From positions 1 to 64,000 of the forward strand of contig JACFMS010000001.1 in the NCBI GenBank assembly GCA_019455285.1: a stretch of 64,000 nt of DNA, in the 5' to 3' direction. The notes under the pieces are model-generated. The model was not told where the DNA came from, made no database searches, and saw nothing but the letters and a program-made list of their open reading frames with translations. The stretch comes from Sphingomonadales bacterium (GTDB taxonomy: Bacteria; Pseudomonadota; Alphaproteobacteria; Sphingomonadales; Govanellaceae). The first letter of the stretch is position 1, and every line of letters begins with the position of its first letter. Shown here one piece after another: positions 13,244 to 36,997 of the stretch. The translations under genes and the position numbers were made by a program.

Positions 13244-13268
13244 GACATCCACTCTTTGCGACGATCGA

Positions 13269-16018: not shown

Positions 16019-16032
16019 GTGCCCATGGCCTC

Positions 16033-17022: not shown

Positions 17023-17061
17023 CCCTCCGTTTTTTATCTCTAGCCTATTTTCATTCCGTAT

Positions 17062-17086
17062 AGTAGAAAATTATTCTATCCGGTAC
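17062..17086. promoter_or_regulatory. Shared 25-bp operator-like box, copy A
   Basis: Begins AGTAGAAAA and ends TTATTCTATCCGGTAC; it contains the short inverted repeat TAGAA-AATTA-TTCTA. The second half matches copy B at 17978-18002 in all but two of 16 bases. It lies 36 bases upstream of the MDR gene, in the right place to control the leftward CoA-ligase/acyl-CoA-dehydrogenase operon. Related boxes are at 29434-29458 and 32565-32586. The regulator is not proven; the TetR gene at 30371 is the nearest candidate. Confidence 0.5.
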
Positions 17087-17110
17087 AAGAAGCTTTCGGC
17101 TAGGCGTCCA

Positions 17111-17896
17111 TCAGCGTCCCTGCCATTGCGGCGGGCGCTTTTCCAGGAAGGCGCTGAAGCCTTCGCGGCAGTCCTGGGTGCCGCCCAGCAGCATGCCGGC
17201 GGCCTGGCAGAAGTCCACCGCCCCCTCAAGCGGCATGTCGGCGGCCAAGGTCACCGCGCGCTTGATCATGGCCACCGCCTCCGGCGCCTGGGCGGCGATT
17301 CGCGCGGCCAATTGGCGGGTCGTCGGCATCACCGACTCAGGGTCCGCCAAGCGCGCTACCAAACCGAGACGCAGCGCTTCATCGGCATCCACCGCCTCGC
17401 CGGTAAGACCCAGGTAGAGCGCCCGTTCGCGGCCGATCAGGTGCGCCAGCCGCGCCGTGCCGCCGGCCGAAGCCATGATGCCGAGCCCGACCTCGGGCAG
17501 GCCGAGGCGCGCCGTGGTCGATAAAATGCGGATATCGCAGGCCAGCGCCAGCTCCAGGCCGCCGCCCAGGGCATGGCCGTTGATCGCGGCGATGACCGGA
17601 ATACGCAGTCTGGTCAAGCGGTTGCCGATGCGGGTGATGCGGTCATGGAGGCGGAAGAAATCATAAGGATGCGCCAGTCCCGTCTTCATCATGCTGATAT
17701 CGCCGCCCGCCATGAAACAGCTGCCGCTGCCGGTGATGATAAGCGTTCGCAAGGCCGGTGTGGCGGCAACGGTGTCCAATGCCTGCTCTAATTCAATAAC
17801 CAATGCTTCGCAGATGGTGTTGCGTTGTTCGGGGCGAGAGAGGATGATGGTTCCTATCGCCCCCTCCATTTCCAGTCTTAGGGTCTGCTGGCTCAT
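17111..17896 (-). CDS. Enoyl-CoA hydratase/isomerase family protein
   Basis: A 261-residue crotonase-fold enzyme that probably adds water to a 2-enoyl-CoA in beta-oxidation. Start chosen at 17896 (MSQQTLRLEMEGAIGTIILSRPE), with AGGAG well placed upstream; an ATG at 17920 would add eight residues. Family marks are the oxyanion-hole segments SGSGSCFMAGGDI and ALGGGLELALACDIRI, and LPEVGLGIMASAGGTARL. The usual second glutamate position reads MASAGG rather than P-G-x-G-G-T, so whether it acts as a hydratase or an isomerase is open. It diverges from the serine hydrolase gene, with box B between them. Confidence 0.87.
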   Translation of the reverse strand: MSQQTLRLEMEGAIGTIILSRPEQRNTICEALVIELEQALDTVAATPALRTLIITGSGSCFMAGGDISMMKTGLAHPYDFFRLHDRITRIGNRLTRLRIPVIAAINGHALGGGLELALACDIRILSTTARLGLPEVGLGIMASAGGTARLAHLIGRERALYLGLTGEAVDADEALRLGLVARLADPESVMPTTRQLAARIAAQAPEAVAMIKRAVTLAADMPLEGAVDFCQAAGMLLGGTQDCREGFSAFLEKRPPQWQGR

Positions 17897-17977
17897 AGCC
17901 TCGGCTCCTGCGGTCGCCATTTTTTCGTCGCGTCACAGTCAGTCTTGCATATCACCGAACACGGTATTATTCTAGAC

Positions 17978-18027: not shown

Positions 18028-19188
18028 ATGCAGATAAACGATCCACAAACCGTCGGTATGGACGCGAAGCGTCTGCAGCGGCTGCCCAAGGCCATTGCCC
18101 GGGACATCGAGGCCGGACTTTATGACGGCGCCGTCATCGCCATCGGTCGTCATGGCCGGCTAGTGATGCACCAGGCGATCGGCTATGCCGACCGCGCCGC
18201 CGGCCGCAAGACGGCGCTGGATGATGTGTTCGGAGTGCTCTCGCTCTCCAAGACTCTGACCAATGTTCTGGTGCTCAATCGCTGCGAGCAAGGGCTGTTG
18301 CGCCTGACCATGCCGGTGGCGGAACTCATTCCCGAATTCGCCATCCTGGGCAAACAGCATATCACCATTCAACACCTGCTGGCCCATACCGGCGGCTTAG
18401 GCGGCATGCCGCCGATGCCGCTTGATCGCATGCCGCTTGAGGCCGCGATCGCCGCCGTGTGCATGTTGCCGCTGATGTCAAAGCCGGGCGAGGCGGTCAG
18501 CTACAGCGGGCTGACCGCGCATGTGGTGCTGGCCGAACTGTTGCGCCGCGCCGATGGCGGCAAGCGATCGTTCCGACAAATATTGGATGAAGATCTCTTA
18601 AAGCCGCTCGGCATGCGCGATACCGCGCTGGGACTGCGTTCGGACCTCGCCAAGCGACGCGTGCCGTTCGTCGTGCGCGATCAGCAGCCCGGCCTGTTGC
18701 CGCCGCCCATGCTGGAAAGTTACAACGAAGTGCTCAATGAGACGGCGGAGGTGCCGGCCATCGGCGTCTACTCCACCGCCGCCGACTTCTACCGCTTTTG
18801 CGAAATGCTGCGCCGCGGCGGCGAGCTGGACGGCGTGCGCCTATTGTCGCCGCTGACGCTGGACATGGCGACCCGCAACTGCACCGGCAATATGATCAAT
18901 GCGTTGTGGACCTATGCTCGGGAAAGCCGCGGCTGGGAAGATTTTCCCGCCTATCTTGGCCTTGGCTTCTCGCTGCGGGGCGAGGGCATTTTCCCGCACC
19001 ACTTCGGTACGCTGGCCTCGCCGCGCAGCTTCGGCCATGCCGGCGCCGGCGCCACCCTGTTTTGGGTCGATCCGGTTCAGGACATGAGTTTCGTCGCCCT
19101 TACCGCGGGCCTGGTGGAGGAAGCCGCCAGCGTGGAGCGCTTCCAGCGTCTGTCGGACTTGGCTCTATCATCGATCGTCGCGCCGTAG
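18028..19188 (+). CDS. Serine hydrolase of the beta-lactamase / EstB esterase family
   Basis: A 386-residue penicillin-binding-protein-fold hydrolase. The nucleophile motif SxxK is Ser72-Leu-Ser-Lys75 (in GVLSLSKTL), and the second motif is YSG in AVSYSGLTAH. The C-terminal HAGAGA replaces KTG, as is usual in EstB-type esterases. No signal peptide is evident, which points to esterase or lactonase activity in the cytoplasm rather than cell-wall work. The ATG follows GGGGGGAG closely. It lies 71 bases before the molybdenum enzyme gene on the same strand and may release an acid or alcohol substrate from an ester. Substrate unknown. Confidence 0.88.
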   Translation: MQINDPQTVGMDAKRLQRLPKAIARDIEAGLYDGAVIAIGRHGRLVMHQAIGYADRAAGRKTALDDVFGVLSLSKTLTNVLVLNRCEQGLLRLTMPVAELIPEFAILGKQHITIQHLLAHTGGLGGMPPMPLDRMPLEAAIAAVCMLPLMSKPGEAVSYSGLTAHVVLAELLRRADGGKRSFRQILDEDLLKPLGMRDTALGLRSDLAKRRVPFVVRDQQPGLLPPPMLESYNEVLNETAEVPAIGVYSTAADFYRFCEMLRRGGELDGVRLLSPLTLDMATRNCTGNMINALWTYARESRGWEDFPAYLGLGFSLRGEGIFPHHFGTLASPRSFGHAGAGATLFWVDPVQDMSFVALTAGLVEEAASVERFQRLSDLALSSIVAP

Positions 19189-19259: not shown

Positions 19260-22187
19260 ATGGCCACCAACGAGATTGAGACCTTGCCTAAGGCTGGCAC
19301 CACGCGCCGCGGCTTTCTCGCCCTTGGCGCTAAATCCACCGTGGCGCTGGCGCTGTGCGAGCTGGCGCCCGGCCTCAACGCCGCTTTCGTCGGCGAGGTC
19401 TTGGCGGGCACCCGCGCCATCGCCTATGCCGGCTGGGAGGATATCTACCGCAAGGAGTGGCAGTGGGACAAGGTCACCTGGGGCTCGCACACCAATGCCT
19501 GTTCGCCCGGCACTTGTCTGTTTCATGTCTATACTCGCAATGGCCTGGTCTGGCGCGAGGAGCAGGCGGCGCGCACCAAGGCCAGCAATCCCAAGTACAC
19601 TGATTACAATCCGCTCGGCTGCCAGAAGGGCTGCGCCTTTCATACCAGCTTATACAGCGGCGAACGGGTGAAATATCCCTTAAAGCGCGTTGGCGAACGC
19701 GGTGAAGGCAAATGGCAGCGCATCAGTTGGGATGAAGCGCTAACCGCCGTCGCCGACGCCATTCTCGACGCCCACCAACGGGGCGGCACATCGAGCTTCG
19801 TGCTTGACGGGCCGCACGTCCATGCCGGCAACGTCGCCTCGGCCGCCACCTTCCGCTTCATGGAATCGCTCAATGGCGTGATCACCGACCACAACATGCA
19901 AATCGGCGATACTTTTATCGGCAGCCTGATTACTCTGGGCAAGATGCAGGTCGGCTATACCCCCGACAACTTCTTTGATGCTCAGTTGGTGGTCATGACC
20001 CATGCCAACTGGTCCTATACCGCGCCGGCGTTGTATCACTTTCTCACCGAGGCGCGCTACAACGGCACTGAGATCGCCATTCTGGCGCCGGACGCCAACA
20101 CCACCACCCATGCCGCGGACATCCACATCCCGGTGAAAGTCGGAACTGATGCCGCCTTCTGGCTTGCGGCATGTCAGGTCATGATCGAAACGGGCAGCTT
20201 CAATGCCGGCTTCATCAGCGAGCAGACCGACCTGCCGCTCTTGGTGCATACCAAAACCCGCCGTTTCTTGCGCGCTGCTGAAGTGGATGGCGGGCGCGAG
20301 GACCAGCTTTATTTCTATGATAAAAAATCAGGACGCATTGCGTCGGCGCCGCGCGGCACGCTGCGGCATGACTTTGATCCGGCGCTTGACGGCGAGTATA
20401 CCGTGACTCTGCGCGACGGCGCGAAAGCCACGGTGACGCCGGTATTTGCCTTGCTGCGCCGCCAACTCGATCAGCGCTACCGTCCGGAACAGGCGCAAGA
20501 GCTTAGCGGCGTGCATGCCTCGGTGATCCGGGATATGGCGGCCAAGATCGCCAGTCGGCGCACCTGCGCCTACATCGGCTTTAGCAGCGGCAAGCATTAC
20601 CATGGCGACCTGATGGAGCGCAGCCTGCTGTTGGCCATGGCCTTGAGCGGCAATGTCGGCAAGCCCGGCACTGGCATCGCCATCTGGTCTTTTCCTGCGG
20701 ACGGCATCTCCATGCTGGCCGGGATGGAGCGGCCGATCGCCCAGGGGGGCATGGCCGCCGGCGCCGAATATGTCCAGGCGCTGGCGCGCGAACTTGCCGC
20801 AGAGGACCCCGAAATCACCGAGGAATTGGTACACATCGAAATGATGAAGCGGATGAGCCGCCGTCTTGGCCACTCGCCGTCAGCCTTCTGGTTCTACAAT
20901 CACGTCGGTTACGACAAGTTATGGAATCGCCGTGAGTGGCAGGATCCAGCCATGCCGCGCTCATTTGGCGACTATATGAAGGAGGCGCAGGCAAAAGGCT
21001 GGTGGGATGGCCTGGTGCTGCCGCCGCCGGGCAAGCCGCCGGAAGTGCTGATGTACATCGGCAACAACCCGCTGCGGCGGGTGCGCAGCGGCAATGTCCA
21101 GTATCCGACCGAGCTTTTCCCCAAGGTCAAGACCATCTTCACCGTGGAGACGCGGCTGTCATCCTCGGCCATGTACTGCGACTATGTTTTGCCGGCGGCG
21201 TGGTACTATGAAAAGCAGGATATGACGCTGTCGATGACCGCCAGTCCCTATATCTCGCTCATCGAAAAGGCGACCGAGCCGGTAGGCGAGGCGATGGAGG
21301 AATGGCGCATCTATGGCCGGCTGCTTAAAACCATTGCCGAGCGCGCCGCCGAGCGCGGCGTCGAAAGCTTTGTCGATCGTTTCGGACAATCGCATCGCTA
21401 TGCCGATCTTTATCACCATTACACGCTCGGCGGCGCGATCGAGGATCACGACGCGGCGGTGCGGGAAATGGTGGCGGTGAAAGTCGCCACCGGTATTTTC
21501 CCGCGTGATTACAGCTACGATCAGTTTCGCCGCGATGGTACCGTGACGCTGCACGGCATGGGCGTTACTTTTCAGAAACACGCCGTGGCCAATGAATTCG
21601 ACCCCAAGAAGCCGTTTTATAGCCTGCGCTGGCATACGGAGGAGAAAGTACCCTACCCGACCTACGCCCGGCGCATGCAGTTCTATATCGATCACGAATG
21701 GTTCCTCGAAGTCGGTGAAGAGCTGCCGGTGCACAAGGATATTCCACCGATCGGCGGCAATTATCCTTTCCGCATCACCAGCGGCCATCCGCGAATCAGC
21801 ATCAACTCGGTGCATCTGGCCAACCCGCAGCTCAATCGCTTGCACCGCGGCCAGCCGGTGATGTTCATGAACGATGCGGAAGCGGCGGCGCTCGGCATCG
21901 CCGACAGCGAGATGGTGCGGGTATATAATGATGTCGGCGAATTCGAGATCATGGTCAGCCTGCAGGCCTGCGTCGCGCCCAAGCAGGTCATCGTCTATTA
22001 CTGGGAGCCTTACCAGTTCCGCGGTTGGCAAAATTTCGACGGCGTGCTGGTCGGCATGCCCAAGGCCATTCACTTCGCCGGCGGCTACGAGCAGTTGCGC
22101 TACTTCTACATGCACGGCAGCCCCCATGCCTCGGTAGATCGCGGCGTGCGCGTGGGCGTGGAAAAATTGAGTCGAGGAGTTGCCTGA
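19260..22187 (+). CDS. Tat-exported Mo-bisMGD oxidoreductase, catalytic alpha subunit (ethylbenzene/steroid C25 dehydrogenase type)
   Basis: A 975-residue type II DMSO-reductase-family subunit. The N-terminus has the twin-arginine signal TTRRGFLALGAKS (Arg16-Arg17), so it folds with cofactor and goes to the periplasm. The FS0 cluster ligands are His77, Cys81, Cys86 and Cys121: HX3C is standard, but the second gap is CX4C where NarG has CX3C. Asp217 in MQIGDTFIG aligns by eye with the Asp that ligates molybdenum in NarG/EbdA. GTDAAFW, SSSAMYCDYVLPAAW and the C-terminal cofactor domain (ITSGHPRISINSVH) are all present. Relatives hydroxylate hydrocarbons or steroid side chains with water, or reduce chlorate, selenate or nitrate. 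The catabolic neighbours favour hydroxylation. The beta gene begins within its stop codon. Confidence 0.92.
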   Translation: MATNEIETLPKAGTTRRGFLALGAKSTVALALCELAPGLNAAFVGEVLAGTRAIAYAGWEDIYRKEWQWDKVTWGSHTNACSPGTCLFHVYTRNGLVWREEQAARTKASNPKYTDYNPLGCQKGCAFHTSLYSGERVKYPLKRVGERGEGKWQRISWDEALTAVADAILDAHQRGGTSSFVLDGPHVHAGNVASAATFRFMESLNGVITDHNMQIGDTFIGSLITLGKMQVGYTPDNFFDAQLVVMTHANWSYTAPALYHFLTEARYNGTEIAILAPDANTTTHAADIHIPVKVGTDAAFWLAACQVMIETGSFNAGFISEQTDLPLLVHTKTRRFLRAAEVDGGREDQLYFYDKKSGRIASAPRGTLRHDFDPALDGEYTVTLRDGAKATVTPVFALLRRQLDQRYRPEQAQELSGVHASVIRDMAAKIASRRTCAYIGFSSGKHYHGDLMERSLLLAMALSGNVGKPGTGIAIWSFPADGISMLAGMERPIAQGGMAAGAEYVQALARELAAEDPEITEELVHIEMMKRMSRRLGHSPSAFWFYNHVGYDKLWNRREWQDPAMPRSFGDYMKEAQAKGWWDGLVLPPPGKPPEVLMYIGNNPLRRVRSGNVQYPTELFPKVKTIFTVETRLSSSAMYCDYVLPAAWYYEKQDMTLSMTASPYISLIEKATEPVGEAMEEWRIYGRLLKTIAERAAERGVESFVDRFGQSHRYADLYHHYTLGGAIEDHDAAVREMVAVKVATGIFPRDYSYDQFRRDGTVTLHGMGVTFQKHAVANEFDPKKPFYSLRWHTEEKVPYPTYARRMQFYIDHEWFLEVGEELPVHKDIPPIGGNYPFRITSGHPRISINSVHLANPQLNRLHRGQPVMFMNDAEAAALGIADSEMVRVYNDVGEFEIMVSLQACVAPKQVIVYYWEPYQFRGWQNFDGVLVGMPKAIHFAGGYEQLRYFYMHGSPHASVDRGVRVGVEKLSRGVA

Positions 22188-23266
22188 TGGTTTACGCACC
22201 CCAGGGAAGCAAGCGGGATCTGGTCAAGGCCAAACGGCAACTCGCCACCGTCATCGATTTGAATAAGTGCATGGGCTGCCAGACTTGCGTGGTGGCGTGC
22301 AAAAATTTGTGGACGGTGCGCGACGGCACCGATCATATGCGCTGGATGAATGTCACCACCTATCCTGGCCATGGCTACCCGCGCGATTATGAGCACAAGG
22401 GCGGCGGTTTTCGCGATGGCGAACCGCAGCCGGGCGTGCTCACCACCATGAGCGATTGCGGCGATCATTTCCAGTTCAACCACGATGAAGTGCTCAATCA
22501 GGGCAAAGGCAACGCCGCGCGCTTTGAACCGAAAACGGCGAGCGGCGAGACGCCGTCATGGGGCTATAACTGGGACGAGGACAGAGGCGGCGGCGAATGG
22601 CCGAATGGCTATCGCTTCTATTTGCCGCGCATGTGCTATCATTGCAGCAATCCGCCTTGTCTGCAGGCTTGTCCCACCAATGCCATCTACAAGCGCGAAG
22701 AGGACGGCATCGTGCTCATCGATCAGGAGCGCTGCCGCGGCCATCGCCACTGTGTCGAGGCCTGCCCCTATAAGGCCATCTACTTCAATCCCGTCCATGA
22801 GACGAGCGAGAAGTGCATCCTGTGCTTTCCCCGGGTGGAGAAAAAAATCGCGCCCGCTTGCAATCGTCAATGTCCCGGCCGCACCCGCGCCTTCGGCTAT
22901 CTCGACGATGTGGAGTCGCAGGTTCACAAACTGGTGCGGGTGTGGCGCGTGGCGTTGCCGCTGCATCCGGAATACGGCACCGAGCCCAATGTCTATTATA
23001 TTCCGCCATGGTCGCCGCTTGCCTATGACGATGAGGGCAAACTCACCGATCAGATGCGCATTCCCGTCTCGCAACTGGAAGAATTGTTCGGCCCGGCGGT
23101 GCGTCAGTCGCTTGAGCTCCTCGGCCGCGAGCGGGCGAAGAAAAGAAAGGGCGAGCCCTCGGAGCTGATGGATATTCTCATCAGTCGGGTCTGGGAGGAT
23201 CGTTTCGGCGGCTTTACCGAGGCCCCGCTTGAACCGCATGCCGCGAAGGGAGGGCACAAGTCGTGA
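22187..23266 (+). CDS. Four-cluster Fe-S beta subunit of the molybdenum enzyme
   Basis: A 359-residue electron-transfer subunit. Its ATG shares a base with the alpha stop (TGATG) and has GAGGAG upstream; an in-frame ATG at 22025 lies inside alpha and is rejected. Ferredoxin-like motifs, in order: CMGCQTCVVACKN (Cys28, 31, 34, 38), CYHCSNPPCLQACP, CRGHRHCVEACP and CILCFPRVEKKIAPACNRQCPGR. In the third, a His stands where a fourth cluster cysteine would be, as expected for the [3Fe-4S] cluster of this family (other members have an aromatic residue or similar there). It passes electrons from alpha to the haem subunit. No signal of its own, so it probably travels with alpha. Confidence 0.94.
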   Translation: MVYAPQGSKRDLVKAKRQLATVIDLNKCMGCQTCVVACKNLWTVRDGTDHMRWMNVTTYPGHGYPRDYEHKGGGFRDGEPQPGVLTTMSDCGDHFQFNHDEVLNQGKGNAARFEPKTASGETPSWGYNWDEDRGGGEWPNGYRFYLPRMCYHCSNPPCLQACPTNAIYKREEDGIVLIDQERCRGHRHCVEACPYKAIYFNPVHETSEKCILCFPRVEKKIAPACNRQCPGRTRAFGYLDDVESQVHKLVRVWRVALPLHPEYGTEPNVYYIPPWSPLAYDDEGKLTDQMRIPVSQLEELFGPAVRQSLELLGRERAKKRKGEPSELMDILISRVWEDRFGGFTEAPLEPHAAKGGHKS

Positions 23267-23907
23267 AGGTCGTCAAGGTTTCCACCGCCGCCGCCGCGCT
23301 TTCTGATCCGCTCTCGCCTTATTGGTCGAGCGCCGCCAAGGAACGGCTGTCGATGATGCCAACGCCGCTGGCCATGGTCGATGAAGTGTCACCGTTTCTC
23401 GCCATCAGCAACGATCATGGCAGCGTCGAGGAGGCGGAAGTGGCGGCGCTGCATGATGGGCGGACGTTGACGCTGCGCTTGTCCTGGGCAATGCCGAAGG
23501 CGGCCGATAAAATCGATGACTTGGACCGCTTCGTCGATGCCGCAGCAGTCATTTTCCCGCTCGCTCGGAATGCCAGCGCCATGACCATGGGCGCAAAGGG
23601 TCAACCCACCAACGCCTGGTACTGGAAAGCGGGCAAGCCGCATCCTTATGACGTCATTGCCGAAGGCTTCGGCTCCAGCCAACGTCACGACGGCGCGACG
23701 AGCAGCTTAAGCGCGCGAGCCATTCACGCCGATGGACGTTGGCATGTGGTCTTTCAGCGGCCGCTGGAGACCAGCCGGGACAGGGTGCGATTCGTGCCCG
23801 GCAAAAAAACCGGCATTGCGTTTGCGATCTGGGATGGCCGCAATCGCGAACGTTCCGGCCGCAAGTCCTTCTCCGGCGAATTCATCCCGCTGGAAATCGC
23901 CGGCTAG
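23263..23907 (+). CDS. Haem-b gamma subunit of the molybdenum enzyme (EbdC/DdhC/ClrC-like)
   Basis: A 214-residue subunit starting with GTG at 23263, overlapping the beta stop (GTGA). The segment ARNASAMTMGAKGQPTNAWYWKAGKPHP is typical of EbdC-type subunits; one of Met107/Met109 is the likely axial ligand of haem b, the other being a lysine in this family. The C-terminal GKKTGIAFAIWDG and ERSGRKSFSGEFIPLEI match the family end. It takes electrons from the last Fe-S cluster and gives them to a periplasmic acceptor. No signal peptide is seen at the N-terminus, so export with alpha is inferred. A soluble haem subunit argues against a membrane nitrate reductase (NarI type). Confidence 0.88.
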   Translation: MKVVKVSTAAAALSDPLSPYWSSAAKERLSMMPTPLAMVDEVSPFLAISNDHGSVEEAEVAALHDGRTLTLRLSWAMPKAADKIDDLDRFVDAAAVIFPLARNASAMTMGAKGQPTNAWYWKAGKPHPYDVIAEGFGSSQRHDGATSSLSARAIHADGRWHVVFQRPLETSRDRVRFVPGKKTGIAFAIWDGRNRERSGRKSFSGEFIPLEIAG

Positions 23908-23922
23908 AGCAGGATCACAAGC

Positions 23923-24594
23923 ATGGAAAACGGCATGATGGGTGAACGCGGACTATGTGCTGAAGATCGCTCCTCGGCGCCGCCCAGCCTTGCCGGCGTT
24001 AGTGCCGGTCACGCGGCGCGCTGCGATCTTTACCGTCTGTTCGCTCAGGCCTTTCGTCATCCAAGCGATGAGATGGCGGAGCTTGTTGCCGAATTGCAGC
24101 AAGCCGTCGCTGGCCATCCCAACCCCGTAGCGTCGCCAATCATCGCGATGCCGCCGCTGGCCGAGCTCAGTCAGCGCTATACGCAATTATTCGAGGCAAG
24201 CAACGGACGCAGCGCCATTTCCCTGCACGAGTCGGACTTCGTGTCGAAAACGCGGGCGACGGTGTGGGAGGATATCGTACGCTTCTATGAGCATTTCGGG
24301 CTGAACTACAATGGCCAGAGCATCCGGCTGTGGCCCGATCATTTGGCCCTGGAGTTGGAATGCCTGCACTACCTGGTATTTCTGGAATCCGGCATGCGCA
24401 CCGATGCGGAACCGCTGCTGCGGGCAGAGCGGGATTTTATCGATCGCCATCTGCTGACGTGGCTGCCGGAACTCTTGCGGCGGCTGAAGGATGCGCCGCA
24501 GGCGGAGCCTTACGCAGCGCTTGTCGCATGGCTTTATGACTGCCTGCGCGCTGATCGGGCGTGGCTGGAGCAGGCCATTGCAGATATGAATTAG
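23923..24594 (+). CDS. TorD/NarJ-family cofactor-insertion chaperone
   Basis: A 223-residue all-helical protein of the TorD/DmsD group, which binds the alpha subunit and its Tat signal until molybdenum cofactor is inserted. Family marks are CDLYRLFAQAFRHPSDEM, LSQRYTQLFE and WEDIVRFYEHFGL followed by PDHLALELECLHYLVFLE. It lies 15 bases after the gamma gene, last in the operon, the same order as ebdABCD, ddhABDC-like and clrABDC-like sets (though position varies). Its stop overlaps the convergent DUF35 gene by four bases. Confidence 0.88.
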   Translation: MENGMMGERGLCAEDRSSAPPSLAGVSAGHAARCDLYRLFAQAFRHPSDEMAELVAELQQAVAGHPNPVASPIIAMPPLAELSQRYTQLFEASNGRSAISLHESDFVSKTRATVWEDIVRFYEHFGLNYNGQSIRLWPDHLALELECLHYLVFLESGMRTDAEPLLRAERDFIDRHLLTWLPELLRRLKDAPQAEPYAALVAWLYDCLRADRAWLEQAIADMN

Positions 24595-24995
24595 GCGGCG
24601 ACGGGTCTGAATTGGGGCAGGCTGATTGCTCCCCGCTTTTCAAACGCCACTTCAACTGGCAGACCCACTCGCACGGTTTCCGGCGCGCAGCCGATGATGT
24701 TCGCCATCATGCGCGGTCCTTCCTGCAGGTCGATCACCGCCACCACATAGGGCGCATCAGCTTCAAAGCCGACGCAGGGCGCGGCGTGCACCACCGAATA
24801 AGTGTGCACCGCGCCGCGGCCGCTTGCCGGCCGCCATTCCAGCGCGCCGCCGTAGCAATGCGGGCACCAGGAGCGGGGATAGAACAGATAACGGGCGCAG
24901 GCCGCGCAATATTGCAGCAACAGCTTGCCATTGGCGGCAGCCTCCCAGTAAGGAGCCGAAGCGGCGGAGATTGCGGGGAGCGGTTTTTCCGTCAT
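24591..24995 (-). CDS. DUF35 OB-fold/zinc-ribbon protein, partner of the thiolase-fold protein
   Basis: A 134-residue protein. The zinc ribbon is LLLQYCAACARYLFYPRSWCPHC (CxxC...CxxC); then GRGAVHTYSVVHAAP and the OB-fold end VGLPVEVAFEKR. Start at 24995 (MTEKPLPAISAASAPYWEAA) leaves four bases after the thiolase stop; a further in-frame start at 25052 would sit inside that gene. In steroid-degrading bacteria DUF35 proteins or domains bind thiolase-fold partners such as Ltp2 and are needed for retro-aldol cleavage of side-chain CoA esters. The tight pairing here suggests the same kind of complex. It is the last gene of the operon starting at 29393. Confidence 0.88.
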   Translation of the reverse strand: MTEKPLPAISAASAPYWEAAANGKLLLQYCAACARYLFYPRSWCPHCYGGALEWRPASGRGAVHTYSVVHAAPCVGFEADAPYVVAVIDLQEGPRMMANIIGCAPETVRVGLPVEVAFEKRGAISLPQFRPVAA

Positions 24996-24999
24996 GGCG

Positions 25000-26187
25000 T
25001 TACGCCTCGCGTGAGAGAATGAGCGTGCTGTGATCGGCCTGCATGCCGCCATAGCAATGCACCAGCGCGGCGCGGGCGTTCTCTGCCTGCCTCGCGCCGG
25101 CTTGGTTCATCACCTGCAAGGCGCCTTCGACGATCATCGACAGGCCGGAGGCGTCCCCCGTGTGACCGTAGGACAACAGGCCGCCATAGGTATTGAGCGG
25201 CAGGTCGCCGCCGGGAAGGATGCGTCCCGAGGCAACGAGCGCGCCGCCTTCGCCCTTGCGACAGAAACCCAGATCCTCCAGGCAGATGATCGGCATGGCG
25301 GAGAAGGCGTCATAAATCTCGATAACATCGATGTCATTGGGAACCATATCAGCGCTGCGGAACGCCTGCGCGCCCGCCTCGCGTGTCCCGACCGATATGT
25401 TGAAGGCGTCAGTTTGGCTTTGATAGCCGTGGGAGTGAAATTCGCCCATGCCGCGGATATAGGCGGGTTGCGCGCTGATCCGGCGCGCCAGTTCGCCGGT
25501 AGTGACCAAAATGACGCCGCCGCCTTCGCACGGCACCGAGCAATCAAGGAGATGAAACGGCGAGGCGATGAGGGCTGACTGAAGCACATCCTCTACGCTG
25601 ATCTCGCCGCGGGAGCGCATGTAGGCATGAGGGTGGCGCAGCGCCCAGGCGCGCGCCGCCACGGAGACCGCGGCAAGCTGTTCCGGCGTGGTGCCATAGT
25701 CGGCCATGTGCCGCGTGGCGAGGAGCGCGTACATGGCCGGGATTGTCGGTCCGTAGGGAAGTTCGAATTGGGGGTGAAAAATCTTCGACATACTGCGCCG
25801 GCCGGCTTCGTCCAGACGCGGGAATTTGCCGGCGCCGGCGCACAACACCGCCTCAGCCCGGCCGTCGGCGATGGCGAGCGCCGCGCGCTGGATCATTAGC
25901 CCGTAACTGGCGCCGCCGGCGAACATGGTTTCCGACAGCACCGTGCGTAACCCCAGCTCATCGCCGAAACGTTCGTGCATGAGAATATCCGGATGGTCGC
26001 CGGCCATGTCCGCCGGCGGCACCAGGAGGCCGTCGATGTCGCGCGCCTTGAGTGGCCATTTCGCCAAGGCGCGCGACAAAACTTCTCGATAAAGATCCAG
26101 CGTGGAGAGTTCCGGATAGCGTCCCGGCGGCAGCTCGAACACAGCGGCGATGGCCGGCTCGTTGCGCAAATGCCGCCGCGCGCTCAT
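25000..26187 (-). CDS. Thiolase-fold protein (SCPx/Ltp2-like) lacking the usual nucleophilic Cys
   Basis: A 395-residue thiolase-superfamily protein of the lipid-transfer (SCPx) branch. The segment where thiolases carry the acylated Cys reads RTVLSETMFAGGASYGLMIQ, with no cysteine. The His loop is NTYGGLLSYGHTGDASG, and the second cysteine region reads ALVHCYGGMQADH. Cys-less thiolase folds such as Ltp2 act as retro-aldolases together with DUF35 proteins in steroid side-chain degradation. Here the DUF35 gene follows after four bases, which supports an aldolase or lyase rather than a thiolase. Its ATG overlaps the SnoaL-like stop by four bases. Function is inferred; alignment is by eye. Confidence 0.85.
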   Translation of the reverse strand: MSARRHLRNEPAIAAVFELPPGRYPELSTLDLYREVLSRALAKWPLKARDIDGLLVPPADMAGDHPDILMHERFGDELGLRTVLSETMFAGGASYGLMIQRAALAIADGRAEAVLCAGAGKFPRLDEAGRRSMSKIFHPQFELPYGPTIPAMYALLATRHMADYGTTPEQLAAVSVAARAWALRHPHAYMRSRGEISVEDVLQSALIASPFHLLDCSVPCEGGGVILVTTGELARRISAQPAYIRGMGEFHSHGYQSQTDAFNISVGTREAGAQAFRSADMVPNDIDVIEIYDAFSAMPIICLEDLGFCRKGEGGALVASGRILPGGDLPLNTYGGLLSYGHTGDASGLSMIVEGALQVMNQAGARQAENARAALVHCYGGMQADHSTLILSREA

Positions 26188-26696
26188 GGTTGCTGTCCGC
26201 TCATCGGGCTGTCGGTGTAGATATCGGTGAGGATGCGCGGGTCGAACCAGTTCTCGGCGACCTCGATGGTCTTGATCTGCCAGCCCAGTCTGGTGTCGGC
26301 GCGCGCCACCTCCATACGGTAAGCGCCGCCGGCGGACAACAGCGCGCCGCCGCGGCTGACGCCGGTATCATGCATGGCGAATACAAAGGCGCGGGCCACC
26401 GCGTGCGCGCCGTCATCATCCAATTCGACATGGGTGTTGGTAATGTAATGCTGCACCGCCTGCACTTTCGGCCGTAAGTCCCGCATGATGTTAATCAGGA
26501 TATCGATGCCCTTGAAGGGCGGCGCTACGGCGTCATGCCGGGCAATCACGTCATCGGCGATCACCAGCCGCATGTCATCCTCGTTCCATTCATCCAAGGC
26601 CCGGCCATAACGGGCCAACAATTCAGCGATGGCGACGCGCGCTTCCAGGCGCTCCAGGCGTTTGGCAAGGGCTTGCAAGTCGTGGGCGGCGGTCAT
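26184..26696 (-). CDS. SnoaL/NTF2-like protein
   Basis: A 170-residue cone-fold protein of the SnoaL-like group used by hydratases, isomerases and dehydratases of polyketide and sterol chemistry. The pattern is LEARVAIAELLARYGRALDEWNEDDMRLVIADDV, then PKVQAVQHYITNTHVELDDDGAHAVARAFVFAMH and VARADTRLGWQIKTIEV. Start at 26696 has AAGGAGA at suitable spacing, 25 bases after the oxidase stop; an ATG at 26729 would overlap that gene. Its place between the FAD oxidase and the thiolase-fold protein suggests a hydration or isomerisation step in the same path. No catalytic assignment can be made. Confidence 0.82.
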   Translation of the reverse strand: MTAAHDLQALAKRLERLEARVAIAELLARYGRALDEWNEDDMRLVIADDVIARHDAVAPPFKGIDILINIMRDLRPKVQAVQHYITNTHVELDDDGAHAVARAFVFAMHDTGVSRGGALLSAGGAYRMEVARADTRLGWQIKTIEVAENWFDPRILTDIYTDSPMSGQQP

Positions 26697-26721
26697 TTCT
26701 TCCGGTCTCCTTAAATCCAGG

Positions 26722-28335
26722 TTACTCAAGGCCGAGCGCGCCGGGGTTCATCAGTCGCTTCGGATCGACGGCGTTCTTGATGTCCTCAAGCATGCTCCAG
26801 CAGTCCGGGTTATGGCGTGAAGCGCGATAAGGATAATACTTGCCGACTTGCACGTGGGTCGGCCGGAAGGGCGCGAAGACGTCCGTCACCATCTCGCGGC
26901 GCAGCGCCAGCGCCGCCTCGCGCGCGATCGCGTTTCCCGGTTGATTGCCGAAACGACGGCGGCGATCTTCGCCCAGCACGCTGTAGCGCAAGGGATTCAT
27001 GCGATCATGCCAGTAGATGATGGGCTCGACGCCGAAGGCATTGGCGGTGGTCAGATAAAGCCGCGTTGCCGTCAATCCATGGGCGCGCATGAAGTCTGCG
27101 CGCTCGGCGAAGAAAGCATCCAAGGCGCGTTTCAAGGCCATGCCTTGCGACAGGGAGACCGTACAATTACTGGGAAAGCTGCATTCGCCATCGATGCCGA
27201 CGATCAGTTCCTCGATCGGCACGAACGGCATGGCGCGCATGGCGATCACCAGCGACGGCGGAATCGGCTTACCGCCCAAGCGACGCGCGGCGCTACGCAG
27301 CGTGTCCATGGCCGCATCGGCAGCGCGCTGATTGACGCCGTCGACGATGGTTTGCACCGACCACGGCCAACGGGCGAGAAAACCGAGAGAGCCGCCGCGC
27401 AACAGATCAAACAGATTGCGCGCGGCGTTCAAACGTCCCGATGAATTGCGCGCGATGGTGCGCAGCAATGCCTTCAACTCATTGGCCGGCGGCCGCGGGC
27501 GGCCGTAGAACACGCGGTGGTGATAGGGGCCGAACACGAAGCAGTCGGTGGCCACGCCTAAGCGCCCGACTTCGCTCATCAGCGCCAGCGCCTGATTCTC
27601 ATCGGCAAAGCCCCAGGCGGCATAAGCGCTGCCGCCGGCCTTGCGCTCCAGACGGAAGCACGCCTTGGTCTTGATGCCGAGACTGCCGGCGTCGTTGATG
27701 AAGAGGCGCGTCAGGTCGGGTCCGTAACAGGTCAATGCGGGGTGCTGCGGATCGGTGGCCAGCGCGCCGGTGGCGAGCAGCCGGCCATCGGGGAGCGCCA
27801 CCTCGACGCCGAGAAGGTAGGTGGTGATATCGCCTTTGCCCCAGCCCACCGCCCAGTTACCCAGACCGCCGCCCACCGTGGCGCGACTGCCGGAGAAGGG
27901 GCCGTGGAAGGGGATTTCGTAAGCGCAATCGGCCAGCACCGCGCGCAAGTCGGCCCAGGTGACGCCGGTTTCGACGGTGACGGTAAGATCGTCAAGGTTG
28001 ATGTCGAGGATGCGGTTCATGCGCCGCATGTCGACGACGATCGAACCGTCGCGTTGGGGAATTGTGCCTAAGGTATAGGACATGCTGGCGCCGCGCGGCA
28101 CCAGCGGCGCGCCACGCTTTTCTGCGATGGCGATGATACCGCGCACATCGTCGACGGAACCCGGCCGCGCCACCACCGCCGCAGTGGCCAAGCGCAGTTC
28201 GCTGAAATCCACCGAACACAACTCCAGCTCGACCGGATCAGTGCTGACATGACCGTCGCCCAGCAAGCGGGTCAACTCCTCGACCAGCGCGGCATGATCG
28301 GCCTTTAATGTTGCCTTTGCGTCGCTGTTCGTCAT
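26722..28335 (-). CDS. FAD-linked oxidoreductase of the vanillyl-alcohol oxidase / 4-cresol dehydrogenase type
   Basis: A 537-residue PCMH-type flavoprotein. The FAD domain contains AAVVARPGSVDDVRGIIAIAEKRGAPLVPRGAS and VVDMRRMNRILDINLDDLTVTVETGVTWADL, then FHGPFSGSRATVGGGLGNWAVGWGKG. The cap domain and the end GKYYPYRASRHNPDCWSMLEDIKNAVDPKRLMNPGALG follow the VAO family. Such enzymes oxidise alcohols or para-alkylphenols and often carry covalent FAD. The covalent-attachment residue is not obvious to me. Start at 28335 overlaps the alcohol dehydrogenase stop by ATGA; there is no signal peptide. A likely role is oxidation of the hydroxylated product or a related alcohol, inferred from the operon. 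Confidence 0.88.
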   Translation of the reverse strand: MTNSDAKATLKADHAALVEELTRLLGDGHVSTDPVELELCSVDFSELRLATAAVVARPGSVDDVRGIIAIAEKRGAPLVPRGASMSYTLGTIPQRDGSIVVDMRRMNRILDINLDDLTVTVETGVTWADLRAVLADCAYEIPFHGPFSGSRATVGGGLGNWAVGWGKGDITTYLLGVEVALPDGRLLATGALATDPQHPALTCYGPDLTRLFINDAGSLGIKTKACFRLERKAGGSAYAAWGFADENQALALMSEVGRLGVATDCFVFGPYHHRVFYGRPRPPANELKALLRTIARNSSGRLNAARNLFDLLRGGSLGFLARWPWSVQTIVDGVNQRAADAAMDTLRSAARRLGGKPIPPSLVIAMRAMPFVPIEELIVGIDGECSFPSNCTVSLSQGMALKRALDAFFAERADFMRAHGLTATRLYLTTANAFGVEPIIYWHDRMNPLRYSVLGEDRRRRFGNQPGNAIAREAALALRREMVTDVFAPFRPTHVQVGKYYPYRASRHNPDCWSMLEDIKNAVDPKRLMNPGALGLE

Positions 28336-29393
28336 GGCGTCACGAGAATTTTGCAATGCGCGGCGCGCTCGGGTCCAAGGAGCGCGGCAAATCCTTCACT
28401 CATGACATCATCGAGCGGGATTGTGGCGCTGGTCATGGCCGGGTGCGGGTTGACTTTGCCGTTGGTAAGAAACGCTATGGCGATTTCGAACTCCGCGTTC
28501 GTATACCCTTGACTGGTGACGATGCTTTTTTCGCGAAAAAACAGATTGAAGAAATCGAAGCTCACCGGCTCGCGATGGACGCCCATCTCAAGAATGGTTC
28601 CGCCACGGCCGCATACCGCATCGGCAAGGTGCAGCGCCGGTCCGGAGCCGGCGCACTCGAACACGATGTCGGCGCGCCGGCCTTTGGTCAGCGCGCCGAT
28701 GATGCGGCCAGGATCGCCATCGCGCGGATCATGCGCCGTGGTTGCTCCCATTTGCAGCGCCAGCTCGCGGCGATGCGCCTCGGTCTCAAACACGTGAACG
28801 GCCTGCGCGCCGCACGCCATCGCCATTTGCATGGTCAGCAGACCAATCGGTCCGGCGCCGATCACCGCCGCCACCGCGCCCGGCTCAAGGCGGCTGCGCC
28901 GGACGGCGCGCACCGCGCAGGCCAGCGGTTCGACATAAGCGCCCGCTTGCCACGACACGCTATCGGGCAAAGGCAGGACACAATCGGCGCGCACCGTCAC
29001 ATAGCGGGCAAACGCGCCGTCGGCGGCGCCGCCGATGGCGGCAAGCTCCGTGCATTGTATGGAGCGCCCTTCGCGGCAATATTGGCAGCGGTAACAGGGC
29101 ATGGTGGGCCGCACCACCACGCGCGCGCCGGGAGCGATGCCGCTCACCCCTGCGCCGATATCCGTCACTTCGGCGGAAAATTCATGGCCATAGGTGATGG
29201 GCGCCATGCGGCCGGTCTGAGGATGCGGCCGGGACACCGGCAGCAGCCGCGGGCCATCGATGTAGTCATGCACGTCCGAGCCGCAGATGCCGCAGTAGCG
29301 CACCGCCAGCTTGACCTCGCCCGGCCCGGCTTGCGGCTCCTCCACCTCCTCAAGTCGGAAGTCCTGCTTGCCATAGACCCGCAATGCCTTCAT
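28332..29393 (-). CDS. Zinc-dependent alcohol dehydrogenase (MDR, threonine/butanediol dehydrogenase type)
   Basis: A 353-residue NAD(P)-dependent alcohol dehydrogenase. Catalytic zinc ligands are in CGICGSDVHDY and YGHEFSAEV; the structural zinc site is CYRCQYCREGRSIQC (four Cys). The nucleotide motif is VIGAGPIGLLTMQMA. It is the first gene of the leftward operon running to 24591, with the next gene overlapping by four bases. It diverges from an SDR at 29501, and the 107 bases between them hold box D. It could oxidise the alcohol made by the molybdenum enzyme if that alcohol is secondary or primary; a tertiary alcohol could not be oxidised this way. Confidence 0.92.
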   Translation of the reverse strand: MKALRVYGKQDFRLEEVEEPQAGPGEVKLAVRYCGICGSDVHDYIDGPRLLPVSRPHPQTGRMAPITYGHEFSAEVTDIGAGVSGIAPGARVVVRPTMPCYRCQYCREGRSIQCTELAAIGGAADGAFARYVTVRADCVLPLPDSVSWQAGAYVEPLACAVRAVRRSRLEPGAVAAVIGAGPIGLLTMQMAMACGAQAVHVFETEAHRRELALQMGATTAHDPRDGDPGRIIGALTKGRRADIVFECAGSGPALHLADAVCGRGGTILEMGVHREPVSFDFFNLFFREKSIVTSQGYTNAEFEIAIAFLTNGKVNPHPAMTSATIPLDDVMSEGFAALLGPERAAHCKILVTP

Positions 29394-31116: not shown

Positions 31117-32436
31117 CTATGGCAGGCGCAGCTTCAATAGCGCCGGGGTTTGTTGTGCCGGCGGCACTGGATCGCCTTCGGGCAGGGTGAACATTCCGCC
31201 ATCGGTGACCACATACAACACGCGCTGGCCATCCTGGTCACGCCCGAGCGCGGCAGCCGTCGGACCGACCACGCCTTCGGCCGCGCCGGCGATCACCGCG
31301 CGGCGGCCATCGCGGCCGATGCGCACCACGGTATTGAAGGGGTGGGTGGTCACGTAAAGCGTGCCGTCGTCATCGATGGCGAAATCGTCGCCGCCGATCC
31401 CTTCGCTGTAGATGCTGGGAGTTCCAGCGCTACCGTCCGCCGCAATCGGCACGGCGATGATCAGGCCGAGGTCGGAATTGGTGACGAACGCCGTCTGGTT
31501 CCATACCTGGATGCCGTTTGCGCCGGGGAAACGGCCGATGTTGGGCCGGCCGGCGAGCCATTCATGACGCAGCCACACCGTGGGCCGGCCCTGGCCGTCG
31601 ATACGCCACACGCAGCCGGTGGAATCGGCGATCAGCAAATCGCCGGCCTTGGTGCGGGCAATGCCGTTGGGGATGGTGCCGGGCGGCAGCGCCGCAAACG
31701 GTCGGCCCTGGCCGTCTGCGGTAATGCGCCATACGCCATGGCGGGCGGGGTCGGCGGCGTTGACATTGAGAAAGAATCCATCGCCATCGGCGGCGGCAAC
31801 CATGCACCAGGCGCCGTTCCAGGGACCATGGCCCGCCTCGACGTGGAAGAACTTTTCCCGCCGACCGTCCGGCCAGACGCGATAGACCGTGCCTTCGTGC
31901 AACGGCGTAACGTAAACCTCGCCCTTATTGCCGACCAGAACCCCCTCCAGAAAAGTCGGCGGATCGAATCGGGTGACGATCTTAGTCGGAACGATGGCTT
32001 TATCCAGACTGCCCGGCTGCGGATCGGTCATCTGCTGCACCAGAACCAGGCGGTCCATATACGAACGGCGCGATCGAATGCGGCCGTCCGCCAGATGCAG
32101 TACGTCCATTCCCTCCACCTGAACCGTAGCGCCTTTGGGCGGCACTGAACCGTAATAACCCCGCTGCACGCCCTGGCCATGGTAGCGCACCATGATCTCC
32201 TCGCCGGTCACGATCGCCGGCTCGGCGCTTAAATGCAGGTCCGGCAGCGCCGCGCGCAATTCCGCAAAGGGGGCGATCAGGGCCATGGGGCCGACGAATG
32301 GCAGACCATGGGAAGTGCAATCGGCGCTGGCCAGCGCCCCCAGCGCTCCCCAATCCTGGGCGTTGACGGCGGTAATGAGGGCAGAGACGAGGGTGTCGGC
32401 GGCCTTGGCCGCGGCGTCGGTCCGGGGATGGTGCAT
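31117..32436 (-). CDS. SnoaL-like domain fused to an SMP-30/gluconolactonase-type beta-propeller
   Basis: A 439-residue two-domain protein. Residues 1-145 look like a SnoaL/ester-cyclase domain (LVSALITAVNAQDWGALGALASADC; GQGVQRGYYGSVPPKGATVQVEGMDVLHLADGRI). Residues 155-439 form a beta-propeller (FLEGVLVGNKGEVYVTPLHEGTVYRVWPDGR; GTIPNGIARTKAGDLLIADST; GANGIQVWNQTAFVTNSDLG). Start at 32436 follows AAGGAGAG; no signal peptide is present. The propeller half resembles lactonases that open or close sugar or sterol lactones. A direct fusion of these two families is unusual. It is divergent from the TonB gene at 32623, with box C between. Confidence 0.82.
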   Translation of the reverse strand: MHHPRTDAAAKAADTLVSALITAVNAQDWGALGALASADCTSHGLPFVGPMALIAPFAELRAALPDLHLSAEPAIVTGEEIMVRYHGQGVQRGYYGSVPPKGATVQVEGMDVLHLADGRIRSRRSYMDRLVLVQQMTDPQPGSLDKAIVPTKIVTRFDPPTFLEGVLVGNKGEVYVTPLHEGTVYRVWPDGRREKFFHVEAGHGPWNGAWCMVAAADGDGFFLNVNAADPARHGVWRITADGQGRPFAALPPGTIPNGIARTKAGDLLIADSTGCVWRIDGQGRPTVWLRHEWLAGRPNIGRFPGANGIQVWNQTAFVTNSDLGLIIAVPIAADGSAGTPSIYSEGIGGDDFAIDDDGTLYVTTHPFNTVVRIGRDGRRAVIAGAAEGVVGPTAAALGRDQDGQRVLYVVTDGGMFTLPEGDPVPPAQQTPALLKLRLP

Positions 32437-32564
32437 CAGCGCGCTCTCCTTATGTCTCAATAGGCAAGGCTTTTGGTCCTGGCATTGTATCACGTCCGCC
32501 GCTAACCGGGCAGCGTTCGCCGGGCCATCGCATAGGCGCCCGCAATATAATTATACTTGTCAGT

Positions 32565-32622: not shown

Positions 32623-34965
32623 ATGATTCGTCGTTTTAGTACTGCTGACGTTCTGGGCCGCACGGCCATCGTAGCTTTAGGCATCAGCACCGCGCTCTGG
32701 TCGGCGCCGACGGCGGCGCAGCCCGTTGAGGAGTCGGACGCGGTACTGGACGTAATCGTGGTCACGGCGCGCAAGAAGGCCGAAAGCATGCAGCGCACCC
32801 CGATCGCCATTACCGCGGTCACCGCCGAGGAAATCCAGGCCCGCAGTTTCGCCTCCATTACCGATATCGGATCATTTACGCCCAATGTGAGCTTATCCGC
32901 CGGCGCGACGGACATCGGCGGCGCGGTCAATGCGGTTTTCTTCATCCGCGGGATTGGCCAGCTTGATTATGCGCTGACCAGCGACCCGGGCGTGGGTATG
33001 TATGTGGACGGCGTTTATCTCGGCCGCGCCCAGGGCGCGGTGATGGAGCTGTCCGACATCGCCCAAGTGGAAGTGCTCAAGGGGCCGCAGGGCACGCTTT
33101 ACGGCAAGAACACCATGGGCGGCGCCATCAACGTCACTACCGCGGATCCCGGCCGCGAATTCGGCGGCCGCATCGGCGTCACCATGGGCGAGGATGAACG
33201 CATTAACTTTGATGGTTACGTTGATGCGCCGCTTGGCGATACCATGGGCGCGCGCTTTGCGCTCTCCTATCGCAGCCAGGAAGGTTTCCAGAAACGGCCC
33301 TTTGCCAACGATGACAAATCGGGCGAGGAAGGAACCTTGGTGTCGCGCGTGAAGTTCGTCTGGGCGCCCAGCGACCAGACCCGCGTCGTGCTGTCGGGTG
33401 ATTACACCCGCATTCGCGCCGACGCCAACACGGTGTGGATCACGCAGAATCTGAACACGCTTGCCGGGCCGCCGAATCTGGTTGCGTTGTGGAACGGCCT
33501 GGTTGGCATTCCCAGCGGTATGCCCTACACCGCTGATGTCACCTCAGTCGATCCGCGGGTCAACAACGGCACCTATCCGATGCGCCTGGAATTCGACGGC
33601 GGCGGCGTATCGCTGAAAATCGAGCATCAATTTGATGCTTTCCTGCTGCGCTCCATCTCCTCCTACCGCGCCATCGATTCGCGCAACCAGCGCGACATGG
33701 ACGGCAGCCCCGCCGACTTCGGCTATGCCGATTATCGCGACGAACAATGGCAGATCAGCCAGGAGTTCAACCTGATCGGCAGCGCTTTCGACGGCAAGCT
33801 GGATTGGACGGCGGGCGCCTATTATTTCAAGGAAGACGCCGAAAGCGATTGGACCGTGGGGTTGGCCGCCGGGCTTTATCCGGCCCTGGAGGCGTTGCCG
33901 GGGCCGATCATTCCCTTTGCTCCCGGCATCAATCTCGGCGGTGCGGGCAATCCGTTCAACCTGCTGATGGAGCTGGTCGACCTCTATTCGCCGTCGCTGA
34001 AGACCAACTCCTATGCGGCCTTTCTTGAACTGGAATGGCACGCCACGGATGCGCTGTCATTCATCGCCGGCGTGCGCTATACCCGCGACGAGAAAGATTT
34101 CGGCTTCACTCAATCCGGCATTCTTTCCGGCGTGGTCGATCCCGGCTTTCCGGTATCGGCCAGCGAATCATGGAACGATATCTCGCCGCGCTTCGGCATC
34201 AAATACCAGGCCAGCGAGGATGTCTTGCTCTACGCTTCGGTCGCCAAGGGCTACAAGGCCGGCAGCTACACCGCGCGGCCATCGGACGCCATCGCCGCCG
34301 CGCTGTCCTATGACCCCGAGGAGCTCTGGGCCTATGAAGGCGGCATCAAGAGCGATCTTTTTGATCGCCGCGTGCGCTTGAACGGCGCGGTGTTTTATTA
34401 CGACTATAAAGACCTGCAACAGCAGACGAACCAGGTGCCGCCGGGCGGCGCCGGGCCGGCGCAGTATACCGACAACATCGGCTCGGCGACGATCTGGGGC
34501 GTGGAGGCGGATCTGACCTTCCTGGTCACCAGCCGTTTCACGCTGTTTGGCAGCGTCGGCTATCTGAATTCCGAGTATGACGAAGCATCCGAAGTGCTCA
34601 CTGGCGTCGGTCTTGATACGCCGTTGGTCAAAGCGCCGAAGTGGAGCGCCACCGCCGCGGCGCAGTACATACATCCCATGGCCGGCGGCGATCTCTTGAT
34701 GCGGGTGGATTATTCCTATGTCAGCGAGAACTTCCCCAACGCCCGCGCCACGGCGCAATTGCGTCAGGAAGCGCACAGTCTGGTCAACGCCAGAATGGCT
34801 TGGACCTCGCCGCAGGAGGATTGGACCGTCGCCGTTTACGGCAAGAACATCTTTGATGAGAAGTACGTCGCCAACGGCTTCGATGTGTCCGAATTCGTTG
34901 CTTATTTCCTTGGCATTCCGAGCAAACCGCGGGAGCTCGGGGCGCAAATCATCAAGCGTTTCTGA
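32623..34965 (+). CDS. TonB-dependent outer-membrane receptor of the core cluster
   Basis: A 780-residue receptor. Start at 32623 (MIRRFSTADVLGRTAIVALGISTALWSAPTAAQ) gives a Sec signal and has AGGGAGGAT upstream; the earlier start at 32557 is rejected. The mature part begins with DVIVVTARKKAESMQ, followed by the plug motif IAQVEVLKGPQGTLYGKNTMGGAINV and a barrel ending in GAQIIKRF. It is the only receptor inside the molybdenum/CoA cluster and has a shared box in its promoter, so it is the best candidate importer for the cluster substrate. Hydrophobic compounds such as sterols and terpenoids are plausible but not shown. Confidence 0.93.
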   Translation: MIRRFSTADVLGRTAIVALGISTALWSAPTAAQPVEESDAVLDVIVVTARKKAESMQRTPIAITAVTAEEIQARSFASITDIGSFTPNVSLSAGATDIGGAVNAVFFIRGIGQLDYALTSDPGVGMYVDGVYLGRAQGAVMELSDIAQVEVLKGPQGTLYGKNTMGGAINVTTADPGREFGGRIGVTMGEDERINFDGYVDAPLGDTMGARFALSYRSQEGFQKRPFANDDKSGEEGTLVSRVKFVWAPSDQTRVVLSGDYTRIRADANTVWITQNLNTLAGPPNLVALWNGLVGIPSGMPYTADVTSVDPRVNNGTYPMRLEFDGGGVSLKIEHQFDAFLLRSISSYRAIDSRNQRDMDGSPADFGYADYRDEQWQISQEFNLIGSAFDGKLDWTAGAYYFKEDAESDWTVGLAAGLYPALEALPGPIIPFAPGINLGGAGNPFNLLMELVDLYSPSLKTNSYAAFLELEWHATDALSFIAGVRYTRDEKDFGFTQSGILSGVVDPGFPVSASESWNDISPRFGIKYQASEDVLLYASVAKGYKAGSYTARPSDAIAAALSYDPEELWAYEGGIKSDLFDRRVRLNGAVFYYDYKDLQQQTNQVPPGGAGPAQYTDNIGSATIWGVEADLTFLVTSRFTLFGSVGYLNSEYDEASEVLTGVGLDTPLVKAPKWSATAAAQYIHPMAGGDLLMRVDYSYVSENFPNARATAQLRQEAHSLVNARMAWTSPQEDWTVAVYGKNIFDEKYVANGFDVSEFVAYFLGIPSKPRELGAQIIKRF

Positions 34966-34975
34966 TGGGCACGGG

Positions 34976-35974: not shown

Positions 35975-35988
35975 CAAGGATAGCCATC

Positions 35989-36996: not shown

Positions 36997-36997
36997 G

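Follow-up and report, generated by a model that had tools for sequence, protein, structure and literature searches.

A thiolase-fold protein without the nucleophilic cysteine, encoded beside a stand-alone DUF35 protein, as a probable retro-aldolase of a Sphingomonadales bacterium

In the window, by which we mean the whole 64,000-nucleotide stretch analyzed, two neighboring minus-strand genes encode a thiolase-like protein of 395 aa (25000–26187) and a stand-alone DUF35 protein of 134 aa (24591–24995, from its likely ATG). With this start, the gap between the thiolase-like stop codon and the DUF35 gene is 4 bases (24996–24999), in agreement with the first-pass annotation, which had placed a stand-alone DUF35 gene at that distance. 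The thiolase-like ORF matches the Pfam family Thiolase_C_1 (168 bits), while the DUF35 ORF, a zinc ribbon followed by an OB fold, matches OB_ChsH2_C (90 bits) and zf-ChsH2 (50 bits). The zinc ribbon is of the C4 type (C30-x2-C33-x10-C44-x2-C47), and the best PDB match of the protein is the ChsH2 DUF35 of 6ok1 (chain B, 1.3e-24). Of 67 homologs, 66 have a same-strand DUF35 gene no more than 250 nt away, one of them apparently fused. In L060 (1486–3105), the DUF35 and thiolase-like parts share a single open frame, possibly a natural fusion. From the gene pairing and the ChsH2-type DUF35, it is probable that the two proteins form a complex, and the genetics of atf1/chsH4 (PMC10398937) offer a precedent for a stand-alone DUF35 beside an aldolase. 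We rejected the pairing itself as proof of an aldolase, as BbsAB, the archaeal thiolase, and two true thiolases of the same genome (L003 and L004) are also paired. These two Cys-bearing paralogs have weak DUF35-like neighbors, and their HDAF motif and second cysteine resemble a possible ancestor of the pattern described below.

The pair closes what is probably a single operon, as the first four ORFs overlap head to tail. On the minus strand, it runs from a zinc-type alcohol dehydrogenase (28332–29393), likely the first gene, through an FAD_binding_4 (VAO/GlcD-type) oxidoreductase (26722–28356) and a SnoaL_4 protein (26184–26729, overlapping the start of the thiolase-like gene by 4 nt) to the thiolase-like and DUF35 genes. 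The FAD_binding_4 oxidoreductase has no recognized C-terminal domain, and its PDB relatives are distant (GlcD/VAO types). The SnoaL_4 protein is a candidate hydratase/dehydratase: in a weak match (E 0.036), its Tyr41, Asp46, and His94 align with identical residues of BaiE, which we take to be the catalytic Tyr30, Asp35, and His83. By analogy, it could supply or remove a β-hydroxyl, the role of MaoC in Shy and ChsH2; none of the neighboring genes that were scanned matches MaoC. In the related genome L009, the SnoaL gene is duplicated in tandem (3428–4386), with one copy having Phe at the Tyr41 position.

Convergent with the pair, the plus strand carries a complete α-β-γ-chaperone operon (19260–24594) of the ethylbenzene/steroid C25 dehydrogenase family of molybdenum hydroxylases. 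It consists of the α subunit (19260–22187), which is homologous end to end, the iron-sulfur β subunit (22025–23266 as the ORF is listed, with the true start probably farther downstream, past the α gene), the heme γ subunit (EB_dh, 23263–23907), and a chaperone of the Nitrate_red_del family (23923–24594) that converges on the DUF35 gene. When compared to EbDH, the α subunit keeps the residues at Asp223 and Lys450, while Asp485 aligns with Ala. A beta-lactamase-family esterase (18028–19188, plus strand) is conserved beside this operon. The module of esterase, molybdenum hydroxylase, DUF35, thiolase-like protein, SnoaL, FAD oxidase, Zn-ADH, and SDR recurs in L008, which is of the same genus, and in L009, a MAG whose thiolase-like protein is 77% identical, so that the neighborhood is kept in three genomes. 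Its conservation suggests oxygen-independent breakdown of a hydrocarbon or side chain, and the retention of a molybdenum hydroxylase beside the pair points to a degradation route of this kind that has yet to be described. The distribution of the hydroxylase was dropped as evidence, as it is too rare in the sampled genomes (2/385 and 2/246).

Farther away, two overlapping minus-strand genes (12074–14480) encode PimD-like and PimC-like acyl-CoA dehydrogenases. The proposed fit of the pair with heteromeric acyl-CoA dehydrogenases is borne out insofar as these are of the heteromeric type, although they lie 10–13 kb off in a separate transcription unit. An acyl-CoA synthetase, a PIG3-type oxidoreductase, and an enoyl-CoA hydratase (14477–17920, minus strand) probably belong to the same pathway. 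Elsewhere in the window, we observe a protein that joins a SnoaL domain at its N terminus to a C-terminal part resembling a beta-propeller (31117–32493, minus strand; weak Vgb_lyase and SSL_N matches), acetoin/pyruvate-type dehydrogenase E1 α/β genes followed by a lipoyl-domain/alpha-beta-hydrolase fusion (34718–38104, plus strand), and an IS-type transposase (DDE_Tnp_1_4; 45690–47045, plus strand).

The AlphaFold2 model of the thiolase-like protein, computed from an alignment without plasmid-derived rows, is confident (pLDDT 87.7, pTM 0.91), and we regard the predicted thiolase fold, as first annotated, as certain. Its best Foldseek matches are 4u4e, 9myr (Sal), and 6ok1 (Ltp2). In VIA-align, the model superposes on 9myr with a Z of 50.3 (2.7 Å over 381 residues), on the true thiolase 6esq with 49.2 (2.2 Å over 377), and on 6ok1 with 47.8 (2.2 Å over 365). 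With 9myr and 6esq only about 1 Z unit apart, structure search was rejected as a discriminator of aldolases from thiolases.

To examine the active site, we aligned the query with some 70 related proteins encoded in other genomes and on plasmids and with the sequences of solved structures, and counted residues over 71 Cys-less sequences; for the 9myr chain, a 24-residue offset puts Gly89, Tyr165, Tyr302, Cys304, Tyr305, Gln347, Gln352, and Gly391 on the expected letters. The nucleophile loop reads ETMFAGGASYG, as quoted in the first-pass annotation, and Gly92 occupies the column of the nucleophilic cysteine of true thiolases and aligns with CtSal Gly89. The missing cysteine is neither chance nor sequencing error, because the position is Gly in 70/71 Cys-less relatives, including neighbors at 96% and 77% identity. 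Where thiolases of the SCP2 and T1 types have HDxF/NExxF, the query has YDAF. Its Tyr292 aligns with TcLtp2 Tyr294 and CtSal Tyr302, each the catalytic base of its enzyme; in CtSal, Tyr302 is essential and Gly89 contacts the hydroxyl (PMC12329534). Both Tyr292 and Asp293 are invariant (71/71 each), while Ala294, at the place of Ltp2 His296 and Sal Cys304, belongs to a variable position (Ala 36, Ser 22, Cys 9, His 3, Pro 1). His342 corresponds to the histidine in the GHP motif of thiolases and falls on Tyr344 of Ltp2 and Gln352 of Sal; histidine is the rule at this position (His 64, Tyr 5, Gln 2). Thus, of the Ltp2 catalytic tyrosines that had been named as a check on the retro-aldolase reading, the first is present and the second is a histidine. 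Cys378 (VHC-YGG) aligns with the second thiolase cysteine and was rejected as the key reactive residue, as two of the five members of the query clade have Val and Thr there.

We inferred two maximum-likelihood trees, one of 71 rows and a second of 39, to which SCP2-thiolase and BbsB were added. Both split the Cys-bearing thiolases from all Cys-less proteins with high support (100/99 and 100/100, respectively). In the 39-row tree, the Cys side holds SCP2, BbsB, 7yvy, and 6esq, while the query groups with the experimentally studied retro-aldolases Ltp2, Sal, and IpfD across the split. The query clade has five members (100/100), the others being L009 (77% identity to the query), a protein of Sphingobium herbicidovorans plasmid pSHV1 (51%), one of Cupriavidus necator pBB1 (50%), and G548 (46%). 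The fork joining Sal and the query clade is weak (88/84), IpfD sits on a long branch, and the query is only about 30–33% identical to Sal, Ltp2, and IpfD. Provided that the root falls between the Cys and Cys-less halves, the query would be bracketed by retro-aldolases. Judged by its residues, it is neither an Ltp2 nor a Sal, because Ltp2 Tyr344 is replaced by His342 and His296 by Ala294; its clade belongs to a large and mostly uncharacterized Tyr/His group. Toward the NCBIfam PRK06158/PRK06064 group, the query scores below the cut-offs (295 vs 421). Among 385 sampled genomes of the class, 89 carry such a gene at E <= 1e-55.

Taken together, the tree position, the invariant Tyr292, and the matches to Sal and Ltp2 make retro-aldol cleavage of a 3-hydroxyacyl-CoA the best reading, and we conclude that the pair is probably a CoA-thioester retro-aldolase with a catalytic layout unlike those of Ltp2 and Sal. 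The original proposal of a retro-aldolase therefore stands on the fold, the Gly in place of Cys, the DUF35 partner, the YDxF tyrosine, and the place among Ltp2, IpfD, and Sal, whereas the second Ltp2 tyrosine and the link to steroids drop out. In this proposed reaction, the DUF35 protein would bind the thiolase-fold protein, probably as an α2β2 assembly, and help shape the substrate pocket. The adjoining molybdenum hydroxylase would begin the oxidation of a hydrocarbon or branched side chain that furnishes the 3-hydroxyacyl-CoA. Tyr292 would deprotonate its β-hydroxyl, the Cα–Cβ bond would break with the Gly92 amide holding the hydroxyl, and His342 would protonate the enolate of acetyl- or propionyl-CoA, leaving a ketone or aldehyde as the second product. 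In the members that have it, Cys378 may assist.

It counts against this reading that replacing Cys304 by Ala abolishes the activity of CtSal; with Ala naturally at this position, the query must use another acid. That Ala is tolerated here in retro-aldol chemistry is indicated by IpfD, which has the same YDAF motif. The acid position itself varies, being Tyr in IpfD, Gln in Sal (with Cys304 as the acid), and His in the query. Whether a His at position 342 substitutes for the Tyr and Cys acids of Ltp2 and Sal is the sharp question raised by this pair; in the literature, we found no assayed member with the Tyr/His pattern, and 4u4e, from the wider group, is a structure only.

Since His342 and Cys378 are retained from the thiolase active site, one may ask whether the pair catalyzes some other CoA reaction, such as malonyl-type decarboxylation, Friedel-Crafts-type acyl transfer, or a condensation run in the direction of synthesis. 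The fold and a DUF35 partner also occur in PhlC-type acyl transferases, but these seem to rely on Cys88, to judge from the deposited C88S variant of CsATase, and the query has Gly at that place. TbSLP slowly decarboxylates malonyl-CoA, whereas CtSal has no such activity (PMC12329534). With every studied neighbor on the Cys-less side being a retro-aldolase and the gene context being catabolic, we consider these reactions unlikely.

Still less probable is an Ltp2 or Sal ortholog acting on steroid side chains in an anaerobic sterol pathway like that of Sterolibacterium. The adjoining hydroxylase does belong to the ethylbenzene/steroid C25 dehydrogenase family, and the genome has a weak second hydroxylase match of nitrate-reductase size, along with acyl-CoA dehydrogenase pairs and an EchA19-like hydratase. 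However, the catalytic motifs differ from those of both Ltp2 (YDHF/Tyr344) and Sal (YDCY/Gln352), none of the genome's paralogs has a Sal or Ltp2 motif, and no MaoC hydratase is fused or adjacent among the neighboring genes scanned. The best genome match to PRK12845, which we take to be the model for KstD (3-ketosteroid delta-1-dehydrogenase), reaches 21.7 bits against a cut-off of 793, and for IpdE2 nothing in the genome rises above the cut-off. Apart from the weak match, the genome has a single hydroxylase α subunit, versus eight in S. denitrificans (PMC6016249). Around the 51% relative on pSHV1, no steroid genes are annotated, the neighbors on pBB1 and in G548 having been scanned in part. 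The steroid-breakdown analogy first drawn for this locus is therefore not supported. With no KstD, no IpdE2 above the cut-off, one α subunit, and no paralog with a Sal or Ltp2 motif, we keep an alkylbenzene, a terpene, another branched side chain, and an unusual steroid route as candidates for the upstream substrate.

That a dead thiolase which has lost its classical nucleophile is kept as a scaffold for the DUF35 or SnoaL protein is hardly credible, given that Gly92, Tyr292, Asp293, and His342 are conserved over 71 divergent proteins and relatives that also lack the cysteine are catalytically active.

Returning to the retro-aldolase, we tentatively extend it to a third layout, with a Tyr base, a thiolase-type His acid, and neither Cys nor His in YDxF, that might account for most of a very large group of DUF35-paired proteins mis-annotated as acetyl-CoA acetyltransferases; here it would work with a SnoaL-type hydratase in place of MaoC, acting after an oxygen-independent molybdenum hydroxylase in an undescribed catabolic pathway. 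Many bacteria have several genes of this kind in their genomes, under the name of thiolase or acetyl-CoA acetyltransferase. Should the residue pattern indeed mark retro-aldolases, such genes are misnamed, and catabolic pathways conceal a whole class of steps that cleave C–C bonds.

Among known systems, BbsAB (benzoylsuccinyl-CoA thiolase) and the SCP2 and archaeal thiolases share the fold, and BbsAB and the archaeal complex also have a DUF35 partner, but they retain the reactive Cys and HDxF and lie across the 100/100 branch. The nearest PDB sequence is 4u4e (241 bits), a putative thiolase of Sphaerobacter thermophilus, which with the PRK06158/PRK06064 group has the same GG[AS]S loop, YD[SA]F, and His at 342, although the query clade is separate (100/100). 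CtSal-Shy(DUF35) (9myr), the bile-acid side-chain aldolase of Comamonas testosteroni, is the top VIA-align match and likewise combines a thiolase fold lacking the nucleophilic Cys with a DUF35 partner. It agrees with the query in Gly89 (Gly92), Tyr302 (Tyr292), and Tyr165 (Tyr153), and differs in Cys304 (Ala294) and Gln352 (His342) at 31% identity; the Shy DUF35 has a C3H1 zinc site and is fused to MaoC, whereas that of the query is C4 and stand-alone. TcLtp2-ChsH2(DUF35) (6ok1), an aldolase for C3 steroid side chains, shares the Gly for Cys, the base (Tyr294 for Tyr292), and a C4-type DUF35. At about 30% identity, it differs in its oxyanion-hole His296 (Ala294) and catalytic acid Tyr344 (His342), and its DUF35 is carried on a MaoC hydratase (ChsH1/ChsH2), whereas the stand-alone DUF35 of the query has no apparent MaoC partner. 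A further parallel is IpfD-IpfE of plasmid pIBU218, a proposed retro-aldolase of ibuprofen-CoA diol, where we assigned the ipfD and ipfE names by operon order. Strains with an insertion in ipfD no longer grow on ibuprofen, and retro-aldol release of propionyl-CoA has been proposed (PMC9195938). IpfE (L091, 13228–13626) has lost most of the zinc-binding cysteines of DUF35. IpfD resembles the query in its YDAF motif, its Gly in the nucleophile column, the adjoining stand-alone DUF35 gene, and the CoA ligase of its operon, and differs in having Tyr rather than His at position 342, in working with a ring dioxygenase, and in two-thirds of its sequence (33% identity).
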